From Syntrophaceae bacterium (GTDB lineage: Bacteria > Desulfobacterota > SM23-61): a DNA stretch of 11,270 bases. Below the pieces are notes generated by a model. That model saw only the letters and a list, made by a program, of their open reading frames with translations. It was not told the origin of the DNA and made no database searches. Position 1 is the stretch's first letter. Each line of letters begins with the position of its first letter. Position numbers and translations under genes: made by a program. The stretch is from contig PMCE01000366.1 in assembly GCA_003154025.1 (NCBI GenBank), positions 1 through 11,270 on the forward strand. The letters are read 5' to 3'. Below are positions 3,410 to 11,270 of the stretch, one piece after another.

Positions 3410-5179
3410 TCATTCGGCCGGGGGCGGCCCCATTTCCCCATCGGCCTCCCGCAGGAGTTGCTCCCATTTGGCCGGCAGTTGGATCCTTGCGCTCACGGTC
3501 TTCTGCCCCTGGGCGCCCTGCATCCAATAGGCCTGGGTTGGGTGTCTTCCCCCCGCCACTACAATCATCAGGTTCCTGGCCTGGCGGGTGATCGGCCAGG
3601 GGTCCGGCAGGGTCTGGATATCGATTCCTCTCTCCTCAAGGTAGTAAAGCATCCCCATCCTCTTCAGCTTCGCCACCGGGATTTTGGAATTCTCCCAGAG
3701 GAACTCTTTGATCTTTTCCTTGGTCCAGCCCAGGTTTGACATTTGCCGGGCGGCTATCGAAGAAAGAAGCAGGACCCCCGGTGCCCCCTCATCATATCCT
3801 TTCAGGCCGTTTACATTCGGGGCCTCCATGTAGGCTGCGATGCGGAAGAGGCTTCCCAGCGCCTCTTCCTCCGGCGTCTCCTTCCCCGTCCCCCGGCGGG
3901 TGATATTCGTGGCGCTCGAAACGGTATAGAAAGCCAGGGAGTTCGCCCCCCGGGGAGCGCCGAAATACTCTACGCTCAGCGGCTCCCAGCCGGGAGGAAG
4001 CCCTTCCTCATCTTCAGCGAAGACGGCGTTCGTGTAGCGCATGCCCCCGAACTGGGACATGGTTCCCACCCCGGGAACGGCTCCGCCCACGTTCTGCAGC
4101 ACAAGTCGCAGGGCCCGACCGATCAGTCCACCGGCGGGATGGAGCGCATCCGGCCCCAGCAGTCCGAAGCCCGAGTTCAGGCGGATCTGCCTGGCCACGG
4201 GCCCGTTGACAATCACCACCGGATAGATGCTGGAAGAGGTCGCCTGCCAGGACTGGTGGGCAAGGCCGGGATCGACCAGGGCCTCCACGGCCGCGATCAG
4301 CACGGGCAAATACTCTGGCCGCCCCCCGGCCATAGCGAGGGAAAGGGCCAACGTCTTGAGCGTCGCGATGCGTCCCTGGGGCAGAATCTTCCCGACCTGG
4401 GTATCAGGAGGAAGGTCCGTCCCCCGCAAGATCCACTTCACCCGCTCCTCCGTCGGGGGGAGGAGGGGAAGCCCGTCCCCCCAACGTTTTGCCAGGAATA
4501 GACGATTCATCCTGGCAAAGTTGTCCTCATAATTTTTCCCCCTGATTTCGATCGCGGGGGGGGCAATCCTTCTGGCCCCTTGGACTGCCGGCTTCCACCG
4601 GGTCAGCCCCTGGATGAAAAGATCGATATTCTGTGCGATGGGGGTCAGATCGCTGCCTGCCAGGAACAAACCCACGGGAAAGATCACCATCGCCACTTCG
4701 GGGGCGAAACCGAACCCGGCGATGGCGTTCTTCGTGGCCCCCACGAACTCCCGGCGCTGGACGATGACCGTCGGGATGCCTTTTTTCTCCATCCTTGCAG
4801 CCGACCGGCCGCAGGCCGTGCAGCAGGCCCCTCAGCTGGCGTTGCCGATGATGACCGCTTGAGCCCCCGATCGGGCCACGAGGTCGGCGGCTTTCTCCGT
4901 GTCGATCCCCTCGTTTCCCTTCGGAAACTCCGTGTAGGGGATGAATTTTGCGGTAGGGAAGCGCTCCTGGAGGAGCCGGCGGATCTCCGGCATGACCCGA
5001 TGGGCTTGCCAGGAGTCGTTCGACAGCTCGGCGATCGTCTTGCCCGCCAGTGTGTCCAGCCGGGGAGCGTGGGCCTCGGTGATCTCCATGGCCCCGGTAG
5101 GATCATATACCTCCAGGATGGAGCGGTCAGCGGGCAGCGCTTCGGTTGCGGAAAATTGAACAAACTCGTCAACGCCCAT
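3410..5179 (-). CDS. UGSC-family selenoprotein; TGA at 4832-4834 read as selenocysteine (589 aa)
   Basis: A strong AGGAGG 9 nt upstream sets the start at 5179. The frame runs 115 codons to a TGA, then stays open for 473 more codons to a TGA at 3410-3412. The sequence around codon 116 reads GNAS-U-GACCTACGRSAAR, followed by MEKKGIPTVIV. This matches the UGSC selenoprotein family pattern (Sec-Gly-x-Cys, then an acidic residue and GIPTV), with Ala in place of Ser. Sec116 and Cys119 make a UxxC redox pair. Cys119, Cys120 and Cys123 are the only cysteines in the protein, so the redox chemistry is concentrated at the recoded codon. A SECIS-like hairpin follows. Residues 1-200 form the UGSC domain. 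The C-terminal part, about 215-560, carries RWGDGLPLLPPTEERV (about 232-247) and a glycine-rich core near VVIVNGP (about 321-327); I do not recognise a named fold there. There is no signal peptide or clear TM segment, so it is probably cytoplasmic. The UGSC family was described as selenoproteins of unknown function, and substrate and partner are unknown. A standard annotation would give two false genes, or one starting at 4792. Confidence 0.92.
4793..4834 (-). promoter_or_regulatory. Bacterial SECIS element with its UGA codon
   Basis: In the minus-strand mRNA the UGA (4832-4834) is followed after 25 nt by a GGUC tetraloop (4803-4806). The loop is closed by a 7-bp stem UGCGGCC/GGCUGCA (4807-4813 with 4796-4802), which contains one G-U pair. 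Two further G-C pairs (4814-4815 with 4793-4794) lie beyond a single bulged A. A short apical loop containing GGUC, within about 16-37 nt of the UGA, is the known bacterial SECIS layout bound by SelB; E. coli fdhF also has GGUC. The element is inside the coding sequence and encodes CGRSAAR in frame. Confidence 0.85.
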
Positions 5180-5188
5180 GAGGCCTTT

Positions 5189-5194
5189 CCTCCT
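5189..5194 (-). promoter_or_regulatory. Ribosome binding site of the selenoprotein gene
   Basis: A consensus AGGAGG lies 9 nt upstream of the ATG at 5179. It fixes the start of the full-length protein and argues against initiation at the internal ATG (4792) after the TGA, where I see no comparable site. Confidence 0.8.
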
Positions 5195-5468: not shown

Positions 5469-5825
5469 TCAGTTCATGATTTCCCTCGAATGGCCGCAAG
5501 GATAGCCCACCCGCCGCCAATACCACCGTCCCATGACGATCTCTCCGAGGGTGACCAGGAGGCCCGCCTTCTCTCCGAGGAAACCCTTTTCCATGCATTT
5601 GGGGCATCGCTTGTTGAGCCACCCGACATCCAACCGAGGCTTTTTTGTCCTGGATTTCCCGTTGGGTTTGATCCTGATTTTGTTATCCTTCACCCACCTC
5701 TTTACCGTGTAGAGGTCGAAAATCCATTGGGATAGAAATTTTTCGGCCGGGCACCCCCGGAGGAGCCAGTCATCCACATCCCAGGGCTCAACATTCAATT
5801 GTTCGGCGATTTCTTTTCGAGTCAT
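5469..5825 (-). CDS. Small helix-turn-helix protein with a C-terminal Cys/His (zinc-ribbon-like) cluster
   Basis: The product is 118 aa. Residues 1-50 (TRKEIAEQLNVEPWDVDDWL, GCPAEK, then YTVKRWVKDN) resemble the winged helix-turn-helix of MerR/excisionase and Nu1-type phage terminase small subunits, where 'G-x-P' precedes a 'Y/F-D...V..W' helix. Residues 53-65 are a basic linker. The C-terminal half has CPKC at 74-77 and C110/H112, a possible zinc site with a long spacer. It contains no membrane segment or signal. A GGAGGG lies 14 nt from the ATG, somewhat far, with a weak GGA closer, so the start is moderately secure. It is upstream of and co-oriented with the selenoprotein gene, separated by about 290 bp that contain a separate candidate promoter. 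It may be a regulator of its neighbours or a leftover phage-type DNA-binding protein. I do not recognise a named family. Confidence 0.7.
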   Translation of the reverse strand: MTRKEIAEQLNVEPWDVDDWLLRGCPAEKFLSQWIFDLYTVKRWVKDNKIRIKPNGKSRTKKPRLDVGWLNKRCPKCMEKGFLGEKAGLLVTLGEIVMGRWYWRRVGYPCGHSREIMN

Positions 5826-7040: not shown

Positions 7041-8009
7041 TTATTTTTTGTTCAACCCCATCTTTCGGACTAGCTTTCCAATCTCATCAGATCTTTCTAC
7101 CACGTATTTTCCATAATCTTCTGAATTAAGGTATAAATGGTCCATATCCAACTTTTTCATCACCGCTTTAAATTCCTGATCATTCGTCGCTTCTCGAAAA
7201 GCATCATGAAGTTTCCTGACGATGGGCTGGGGCATTCCTTTCGGGCCGCAAATGCCCAAAGAGGCTAAAAAGCTAAAACCATAAATCTCTTTGGTCGTAG
7301 GTACCCGGGGATAATGATCCGCCCGTTGAATCCCATAAGTTGCCAAAAGCCGCAGTTTCCCGGCATCAACCAGGGGAATAAAACTCGAATCGCAGGAGAT
7401 CATATCCACATGCCCCCCCAGAAGCGCGGTACAGGATTCCGGAGCGCTCTTATAGGGGATGTGCCCTAATTCGATACCCGCGGAAGAACAAAACATTTCC
7501 ATCGCTATATGAACAGGAGTTCCTACCCCCGCTGATCCATAAAAGAGCTTCTGGGGGCTCTTTTTTATCTGTTCCACTAATTCCTGGATACTCTTTGCCT
7601 GCGAGTCAGCACGGACAACAATCCCGAATAAGAACCCCCCCCAACGTATGATTCGAGTAGGCTCAGCCACAGGGTCGAAATTCAATTCCCCCATATGAAA
7701 ATTAATAATCGGGCTATCGGTTATGACCCCAATGGTATAGCCATCCGGCTTGCTTCTAAGCACCAAATTGGGCCCGATCGTCCCTCCTCCTCCAGGTTTG
7801 TTCTCGCAGATAACCGGCTGCCCCAGGTATTTCCCGGCACCTTTGGCGAGAACTCTCGTCGACAGATCCGTTCCTCCCCCCGCTCCATAGGGGATCATTA
7901 AGTTTATGAATTTTGACGGGTATTCCGATGCCCAAGCGGAGAATTCTCCGGAATAAATAATACTGGTTAGGAATGATACTAAGATAATCAGCCCTTTATA
8001 AAAACCCAT
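7041..8009 (-). CDS. TctC/Bug-family periplasmic substrate-binding protein (tripartite tricarboxylate transporter type)
   Basis: With the start at 8009 (AGGAG 7 nt upstream) the product is 322 aa. Residues 1-28 are a typical signal peptide (basic start MGFYK, hydrophobic core, FSAWAS before EYPSKF). The longer in-frame ATG at 8111 would put 34 polar residues before this signal and is rejected. The mature part matches the TctC (PF03401) pattern: YPSKFINLMIPYGAGGGTD, ENKPGGGGTIG, KPDGYTIG, VPTTKE and GPKGMPQPIVRKLHDAF. These proteins bind dicarboxylates, tricarboxylates or aromatic/amino acids in the periplasm and hand them to a TctA/TctB membrane pair. No such pair is intact here, so it is an orphan receptor, as is common in this family. 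It is a clear paralogue of the other binding protein at 10366-11270. The base composition looks more AT-rich than in that paralogue. The ligand cannot be deduced. Confidence 0.93.
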   Translation of the reverse strand: MGFYKGLIILVSFLTSIIYSGEFSAWASEYPSKFINLMIPYGAGGGTDLSTRVLAKGAGKYLGQPVICENKPGGGGTIGPNLVLRSKPDGYTIGVITDSPIINFHMGELNFDPVAEPTRIIRWGGFLFGIVVRADSQAKSIQELVEQIKKSPQKLFYGSAGVGTPVHIAMEMFCSSAGIELGHIPYKSAPESCTALLGGHVDMISCDSSFIPLVDAGKLRLLATYGIQRADHYPRVPTTKEIYGFSFLASLGICGPKGMPQPIVRKLHDAFREATNDQEFKAVMKKLDMDHLYLNSEDYGKYVVERSDEIGKLVRKMGLNKK

Positions 8010-8068
8010 GATGCTTCTCCTTTGCCATCTATTCTTTTGATGAGAATTTTTTGTTAACCAAGTCGTAA

Positions 8069-8087
8069 CCTCCGGTAGAGCCGGAGG
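8069..8087. repeat. Hairpin upstream of the TctC gene
   Basis: CCTCCGG (8069-8075) and CCGGAGG (8081-8087) pair perfectly over 7 bp around TAGAG, about 60 nt upstream of the TctC start codon. The 295-bp spacer 8010-8304 between the TctC gene and the thiolase gene also holds a smaller stem (CCGCT/AGCGG near 8104-8116), the hairpin at 8270-8290, and a perfect TTGACA (minus, 8185-8190) without a good -10. No gene is seen in the spacer. The hairpins could separate expression of the TctC gene from the thiolase operon. Confidence 0.3.
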
Positions 8088-8269
8088 CTTGAAAATATGT
8101 GAACCGCTCAAAGCGGAATAAGTTTGGAGCCACCTAAAGTTGGCCTTCGCTTGGGTGCCAGGCTAGGGCGCAAGGTTCGGGAACTGTCAAACTCTTTGAT
8201 TACCCCAGCAAATCCGGGGATTTATCCAAGGCAAAATTAAACCGATAAGATTATTTCTGCTGCCTTACC

Positions 8270-10365: not shown

Positions 10366-11270
10366 TTAGGTCTTGTCCAACCCGAGTCTTTTTACCAGCT
10401 TACCCATCCGGTCAAATTCTTCCCGCAGGTATTTCTCGTACTCCTCGGGGCTCGAATAGCATCGGGTGATTTCGAATTTTTTCTGGGCCTCGATGAACTC
10501 GAGTTCATCCATGGCTTTCTTGAAGGCTTCATGGAGCCGGTTTACGATCGGTTTCGGGAGTCCTTTGGGTCCCACGATCCCCATATGGTTGCTGACCACG
10601 ACATCATAACCGACTTCTCTCAGCGTGGGAGCCTGGGGATAACGGGGAGTCCTCTGTTCTCCATAGGTGGCCAGCAGCCTGAATTTCCCCGCATCCACCA
10701 TCGGGGTCCAGCCGGAGGAGTTGGAAAGGACATCGATATGACCCCCCAGAAGGGCCGTGTTGATTTCTGCTCCGCCCTTGTAGGGGACGTGGACGAGCCG
10801 GATGCCCGCCGCCATGCTCAACTCTTCGATACCCAGGTGGCCCGAGCTTCCGGTCCCCGGGGTTCCATAGGACAGTTTGTCGGGATTTTTCTTGGCATAT
10901 TGGATCAGGTCCTGAATCGTTTTCCACTGCGAATCGGTCCGGACCAGAATGCCGTAAAGGTAGTCGCCCCAGCGCATGATGGGAGTCAGGTCGTTCAGCG
11001 GGTGAAAGTTCAGCTTGCCCATCTGATAGGCCTGCAGGGTGCTTCCCGTGAAGACGCCAATGGCGTACCCGTCCGCCGGCTTGCTGACCACCAGGGCGAC
11101 GCCCACGGTGCCCCCGCCGCCGGGTTTGTTCTCCCCGACCATGGTCTGGCCCAAATATTTCCTGGTGCCCATGGCCAGGGGGCGGGCGGTCAGGTCCGTG
11201 GAGCCCCCGGGGGGATAGGGGATGGTCAGGTTGATGGGCTTGTTCGGGTAAGACTGCCCCCAAACACACA
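10366..11270 (-). CDS. TctC/Bug-family periplasmic substrate-binding protein (N-terminus cut by window edge)
   Basis: The frame is open from the right edge for 300 residues to a TAA at 10366. It does not start at the internal ATG 11172: upstream residues read WGQSYPNKPINLTIPYPPGG, the conserved start of a mature TctC protein, so only the signal peptide is missing. The family motifs ENKPGGGGTVG, PADGYAIGV, APTLREVGYD and GPKGLPKPIVNRLHEAF are all present, as is the C-terminal SPEEYEKYLREEFDRMGK helix. It is paralogous to the binding protein at 7041-8009, roughly half identical by eye, but differs at the ligand-facing N-terminal loop (YPPGGSTD against YGAGGGTD). It may therefore bind a different acid. 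It is the first gene of the minus-strand run that leads into DUF35 and thiolase, which hints that its ligand feeds that pathway. Confidence 0.93.
   Translation of the reverse strand, partial: CVWGQSYPNKPINLTIPYPPGGSTDLTARPLAMGTRKYLGQTMVGENKPGGGGTVGVALVVSKPADGYAIGVFTGSTLQAYQMGKLNFHPLNDLTPIMRWGDYLYGILVRTDSQWKTIQDLIQYAKKNPDKLSYGTPGTGSSGHLGIEELSMAAGIRLVHVPYKGGAEINTALLGGHIDVLSNSSGWTPMVDAGKFRLLATYGEQRTPRYPQAPTLREVGYDVVVSNHMGIVGPKGLPKPIVNRLHEAFKKAMDELEFIEAQKKFEITRCYSSPEEYEKYLREEFDRMGKLVKRLGLDKT

Follow-up and report, generated by a model that had tools for sequence, protein, structure and literature searches.

In aquatic metagenomes, proteins carrying the UGSC motif form one of the more abundant selenoprotein families of prokaryotes, with 255 sequences in the 2008 selenoproteome of the Global Ocean Sampling, where the sections dealing with this family consider the protein likely to be thioredoxin-like, note that domains fused to such selenoproteins have conserved Cys as a rule, and name a UGSC/Unknown_1 fusion (PMC2398784, Figure S1A). 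Another list gives 26 and 33 for UGSC, numbers that we take to be those of organisms and proteins (PMC5029168), and UGSC-motif selenoproteins are mentioned for Geodermatophilaceae (PMC5330540). The passages on UGSC that we found in this literature give no established function for the protein, and they describe neither a partner gene, nor a thioredoxin fusion, nor an expansion of the family.

We have analyzed a locus in an 11,270-nt stretch of a Syntrophaceae genome (contig PMCE01000366.1, hereafter the window), in which a single minus-strand frame of 589 codons is interrupted only by a TGA at codon 116 (Table 1). Judged by sequence comparison, this TGA is almost certainly the selenocysteine codon of a UGSC-type protein, as argued by its conservation, its alternation with Cys, the hairpin downstream of it and the SelB and tRNA-Sec genes in the genomes of relatives. 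The gene fuses two parts that neighboring genes specify separately in many other bacteria, and it hints at an uncharacterized selenium-dependent redox enzyme. The complete explanation that we favor, with a probability of about 0.8, is a single selenoprotein with hairpin-directed selenocysteine insertion that acts as a fused two-subunit thiol-dependent reductase.

Table 1. Coordinates of the UGSC fusion gene and its elements in the window.
Feature	Position	Strand	Basis
UGSC::C-domain fusion gene, Sec proposed at codon 116	3410..5179, start ATG 5179, terminator TGA 3412-3410	-	frame reading and relatives
In-frame TGA, proposed selenocysteine codon 116	4832..4834	-	TGA in 83/84 copies; Cys in 49/50 database homologues
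Shine-Dalgarno-like AGGAGG	5189..5194, 9 nt ahead of ATG 5179	-	sequence
Internal ATG (codon 130), false start for gene callers	4790..4792	-	
UGSC domain (PF24696), residues 23-166	4682..5113	-	Pfam and structure model
C-terminal domain, residues ~217-589	3413..4531	-	no Pfam/NCBIfam family; elsewhere often separate, near a UGSC gene
SECIS-like hairpin, 6-bp stem GCGGCC/GGCUGC with GGUC loop	4797..4812	-	comparative

As the sequence-only reading of this DNA had proposed, the frame is open on both sides of the TGA, and the residues that follow it run unbroken into the internal ATG; the third-position GC content is 0.783 before the TGA and 0.774 after it. Gene callers begin a 460-aa protein at this ATG, upstream of which there is only an AAGG, directly abutting. 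The same reading expected standard callers to split the gene, and this proved to be common, since among the 120 database homologues listed, 70 are less than full length, most of them with a start at the internal Met or beyond it. Database gene calls thus often cut the UGSC-fusion family at its active site, and the 115-aa fragment left in front is, as anticipated, devoid of both motif residues. No Rfam families or tRNAs were found within the window.

A scan of a genome collection returned 151 relatives, and the best 80 of these loci, with 84 gene copies that span residue 116, were analyzed. Codon 116 is TGA in 83 of the 84 copies and TGC in the remaining one (L049), and the TGA persists down to 28% identity. 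The matched frames contain no further stop, except for a match at L023 that runs into its own terminator. Full-length database proteins, which show the alternative residue because such entries cannot contain a TGA, have Cys at both positions 116 and 119 in 49 cases out of 50. Overall, the in-frame UGA stands where homologues have Cys or Sec, as is characteristic of bacterial selenoproteins, and frames continue through position 116 with both residues and synonymous codons conserved beyond it. These data bear directly on the possibility that the locus is a pseudogene in decay or consists of two distinct genes, namely a 115-aa UGSC fragment followed by a protein starting at ATG 4792, which is how gene callers annotate it and which the existence of stand-alone C-domain proteins would favor. 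We consider this very improbable and have rejected it, because the stop is a conserved TGA, conservation extends past it and ATG 4792 has no usable ribosome-binding site; moreover, the first product would miss both motif residues, and stop-free C-domain proteins align from around query residue 190-235 onward rather than from 130.

Several of the homologous loci deserve a mention in their own right. The one exception among the 50 full-length proteins, P0078, has GGEG, with Gly replacing both residues of the U/C-x-x-C pair, and judging from its sequence may have lost catalysis. Two UGSC::C fusion genes, both with TGA at codon 116, lie in tandem at L027 and L028 (about 10001-13488). Several records (L030, L038, L043, L048 and others) come from metagenome bins titled Bordetella parapertussis and, in one case, Chitinophaga pinensis; they cluster with betaproteobacterial genes in the tree, and their titles look wrong.

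In the window, the putative SECIS hairpin lies 22-37 nt downstream of the T of the TGA, and positions +22 to +26 read GCGGC and positions +33 to +37 read GCCGC in nearly all sequences of a set of 84 that includes the window, whose own arms are GCGGCC and GGCUGC. Codon choice in this segment is strongly skewed among the genes of the close family: Arg125 is CGT in 73 of 82 genes vs 13.4% among the other Arg codons of the same genes, Gly124 is GGC in 80 of 82 and codon 127 is GCC in 66 of 82. In the Cys-type gene L049, these hairpin codons are instead CGC GCG GCG. A test of synonymous sites over 196 codon columns in 79 genes (reduced from 82 by dropping near-identical ones) placed columns 131, 127, 125, 124 and 123 within the 25 most over-conserved and columns 121, 122 and 128 outside them; the distant columns 434, 176 and 144 rank high as well, and the background of the test is raised by the relatedness of the genes (mean z 2.5, sd 5.0). 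The ACGR.AAR stretch conserved in relatives sits over the hairpin, and its conservation may therefore partly reflect an RNA constraint.

Pairing was evaluated separately in a close group (75 distinct sequences, including two copies with less than 45% identity) and in distant relatives, with nine UGSC sequences assigned to neither group. All five stem pairs are formed in 70 of the 75 close sequences, and a register slid by -3 is still 88.5% paired; as the stem hardly varies there, covariation within this group says little. In the distant relatives the stem is about six bases closer to the TGA, with +14 to +20 pairing to +26 to +32. Among 38 distinct distant sequences, 85.0% of the cells are standard pairs (70.4% in shuffles, at most 54.1% in slid registers) and 31 cells show two-sided changes (11.4 in shuffles, at most 21 in slid registers), values reached by none of the 500 shuffles in either case, and all five inner pairs are formed in 27 of the 38. 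The number of pair types was reached by 49 of 500 shuffles. The close family placed in the distant register is just 32.4% paired, yet it beats all 500 shuffles on two measures, which shows that the shuffle test is inflated by relatedness and makes the slid registers, together with the exchange of G-C (23 of 38) for C-G (15 of 38) at pair 20-26, the better evidence. On this basis, distant relatives keep a hairpin through compensatory changes. Folding energies below those of synonymous shuffles were not found across 83 genes (the mean z is +0.38 over the hairpin segment and +1.68 over 54 nt), nor for the hairpin segment of the window (z -1.25, p 0.12). Against dinucleotide shuffles, the 24-nt hairpin segment of the window gives z -2.31, with 6 of 200 shuffles folding equally well, and its 50- and 60-nt segments are not outstanding (z -0.03 and -0.41). 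Overall, the second hallmark of a bacterial selenoprotein gene, a SECIS hairpin directly after the UGA, is found here on comparative evidence, with a negative energy test and a shuffle control inflated by relatedness.

The selenocysteine machinery was searched for in 36 of the 37 genomes with relatives (all except that of L011) and in 14 control genomes. SelB exceeds its cut-off in 32 of the 36 vs 2 of the 14 controls. The tRNA-Sec cut-off is passed in 32 of the 36, but weak second hits and 5 of the 14 controls pass it as well; we therefore counted tRNA-Sec only at 60 bits or more, which leaves 31 of the 36. SelB, a strong tRNA-Sec or both are present in 33 of the 36 genomes; the three with neither (G010, G028 and G032) have their loci in records with MAG in the title. 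Of 95 genomes in the Rokubacteria-titled phylum of G018, 84 have SelB above its cut-off and 71 have a family match; since SelB is nearly universal there, the co-occurrence represents agreement and not a test of association. G029, the genome of the sole Cys-type gene L049 among the 80 loci, has both SelB and a strong tRNA-Sec, so that the choice between Cys and Sec is not a simple matter of whether the machinery is present. The Cys in 49 of 50 full-length homologues would also suit a UGA decoded without selenium, as Cys, Trp or Gly, by a variant tRNA or a changed code. Such decoding seems hardly credible given the hairpin after the codon and the machinery in 33 of the 36 genomes, and a general sense meaning of TGA is excluded here by the fact that the terminator of the fusion gene is itself a TGA.

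The assignment to the UGSC family, made originally from the motif, holds for Pfam, where the joined protein scores 80.7 bits with PF24696 and the 115-aa piece before the TGA 36.8 (cut-off 25). It does not hold for the NCBIfam model NF041046 (UGSC_fam), whose cut-off of 125 is missed by the whole window protein (47 bits), by its UGSC domain (50.2 bits) and by all eight full-length fused homologues tested (P0035, P0039, P0065, P0068, P0070, P0074, P0079 and P0080). Stand-alone UGSC relatives at L167 and L179 pass the same cut-off with 130.1 and 150.3 bits, respectively. The low score of the window protein points to a divergent, fused branch of UGSC. The domain is modeled as a Rossmann-like alpha/beta fold with U116 placed between a strand (108-114) and a helix (117-132). 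The motif itself varies among 83 genes (43 UGSC, 28 UGAC, 7 UGRC, 3 UGNC, 1 UGTC and 1 CGSC), and the suggestion that UGAC marks a subgroup had to be abandoned, as the label requires at least three changes on the tree of 83 rows.

Pfam and NCBIfam scans of the C-terminal domain (~370 residues) matched no family, and no confident fold was obtained for it. The domain has no Cys in the window and 0-5 Cys in relatives. Any family match is found in 87 of 294 genomes of a Chloroflexi-titled class and in just 9 of 241 genomes of the class of G026, and the phylum of G018 has up to 15 family matches per genome. Stop-free C-domain matches without UGSC occur in the Chloroflexi-titled class and in the G018 phylum too. 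Forty stand-alone or differently fused C-domain loci were picked by hand, not at random, from the listed stop-free matches, in a first set of 20 with frames of 352-432 aa and a second set of 20, mostly lower-ranked, with frames of 422-736 aa. In 38 of these 40 hand-picked loci (20 of 20 and 18 of 20), the C-domain has a separate, TGA-containing UGSC gene in its vicinity. In the first set, it is on the strand of the C-domain in 19 loci and upstream along that strand in 18; in the second, all 18 UGSC genes share the strand of the closest C-domain and lie no more than 175 nt from it. At the other two, L187 (near a contig end) and L188, no UGSC gene was found in the stretch searched, and both carry a thioredoxin-like domain.

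Such a C-x-x-C thioredoxin-like stretch precedes the C-domain in 9 of the 20 loci of the second set, L187 and L188 included (the pattern matched ten loci, of which L181 was discounted as apparent out-of-gene sequence), and L176 and L177 have a similar stretch in which the second Cys is missing. L179, the only C-x-x-C locus of this set that was scanned, reaches E 3.7e-7 with ResA and 27.9 bits with AhpC-TSA (cut-off 26). In the class of G026, the C-domain of three loci (L086, L087 and L088) is likewise preceded by a CxxC stretch, and a TGA-containing UGSC gene follows closely downstream; no Pfam thioredoxin match was obtained for these loci, and L086 matches no family. At L085, UGSC is absent from the stretch searched. 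The C-domain occurring alone or after a thioredoxin-like domain, with UGSC encoded separately nearby, appears to be a new arrangement. The fusion in one lineage, the adjacency in others and the redox domain on the partner, all visible on comparing the loci, together argue for one two-part redox enzyme. Conversely, selenocysteine could be read as proposed in what is an ordinary thioredoxin-like redox protein, with the C-domain an unrelated passenger, a reading in line with the likely thioredoxin-like nature ascribed to UGSC in the relevant part of PMC2398784 and with the lack of a named family for the C-domain. We hold it to be rather unlikely, as the two parts adjoin in nearly all of the sampled loci and are fused in the family of the window; in addition, none of the 50 rows shown in the structure search with the full model is titled thioredoxin, a count that in itself leaves room for a thioredoxin fold.

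Enzymes of the GrdB type (with GrdF and GrdH, the glycine, sarcosine and betaine reductases) and of the PrdB type (D-proline reductase) are dithiol-dependent reductases composed of a selenocysteine-containing subunit and partner subunits. GrdB, GrdF, GrdH and PrdB models weakly match 7 of 9 fused proteins over the Sec motif, with a best E of 0.0021 (the window, P0035, P0039, P0065, P0070, P0079 and P0080); no match of this type was seen for P0068, nor for P0074, for which matches were listed only to E 0.1. The UGSC domain of the window alone matches GrdH at E 0.15. The GrdB/PrdB family cut-offs are missed by far, the best homologue reaching 17.5 bits vs 300 for PrdB, and the search with the Pfam GRDB model is empty up to an E of 10. 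It is from these weak matches over the Sec motif, combined with the known enzyme type, that we infer a thiol-dependent reductase. GRDB-like proteins (L101-L120), mostly in short frames, exceed the cut-off of PF07355 in 14 of the 14 fusion-carrying genomes searched and in none of the 14 controls.

In the mechanism that we propose, ribosomes would read the UGA as selenocysteine via SelB and tRNA-Sec, guided by the hairpin. The product would combine a UGSC domain, with a redox pair U116-x-x-C119 at a strand-helix junction, with the partner domain that is a separate neighboring gene in many bacteria, and the fusion would most likely work as a two-subunit thiol-dependent reductase. As to the chemistry, electron donor and substrate class, the selenolate may attack or reduce a small, probably anionic organic substrate at the subunit interface, whereupon a U116-C119 selenenyl-sulfide would form and be regenerated by a thioredoxin-like donor. 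Extending this beyond the window, we see a somewhat better than even chance that UGSC is the Sec subunit of a widespread two-subunit reductase, akin in principle to D-proline reductase, that has the C-domain as its partner. Within that same proposal, a thioredoxin-like domain fused to the partner could donate electrons, the enzyme would occur split, as the UGSC::C fusion of the window, or as UGSC plus Trx::C, and the multiple copies (at most 15 family matches per genome, in the Rokubacteria-titled phylum) would probably serve the breakdown of different organic acids.

The gene neighborhood suggests a context of organic-acid catabolism. By Pfam, the window encodes tripartite-transporter receptors, a thiolase with an OB-fold partner and a flavin-reductase-like gene, and neighbors elsewhere, named by eye, resemble short-chain dehydrogenases, CoA-transferases and acyl-CoA dehydrogenases. 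The two TctC (tripartite tricarboxylate receptor) genes of the window, on the minus strand at 7041-8111 and 10366-11172, flank the thiolase/OB-fold pair, and TctC genes are present at 37 of 47 loci with betaproteobacterial-type titles vs 2 of 33 others. Upstream of the fusion gene, a minus-strand ORF of 118 aa (5469-5825) has a possible helix-turn-helix start and Cys pairs; it matched no Pfam or NCBIfam family.

A UGSC fusion has been known since 2008, and it is the split-subunit arrangement that appears new and worth pursuing. With candidates for the partner subunit and the electron donor, and with compensatory changes in the hairpin, the system becomes one that can be expressed and assayed. 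Compared with the UGSC family of NF041046 and PF24696, the window protein has in common the U/C-G-x-C motif, the TGA at its first position and a domain over the Pfam cut-off; it differs in reaching just 47-50 of the 125 bits required by NF041046 and in being fused to a partner of ~370 residues. UGSC/Unknown_1, compared here through its description in the text of PMC2398784, likewise joins a UGSC selenoprotein to a conserved unknown domain, but the fused domains described there usually have conserved Cys, unlike the C-domain of the window. The likeness to PrdB and to GrdB, GrdF and GrdH is a weak one at the profile level, over the U-x-x-C region and far under every cut-off. Finally, thioredoxin-like proteins of the ResA/AhpC type are fused to the same C-domain at L179, whereas the window gene carries the UGSC domain and the C-domain without such an addition.
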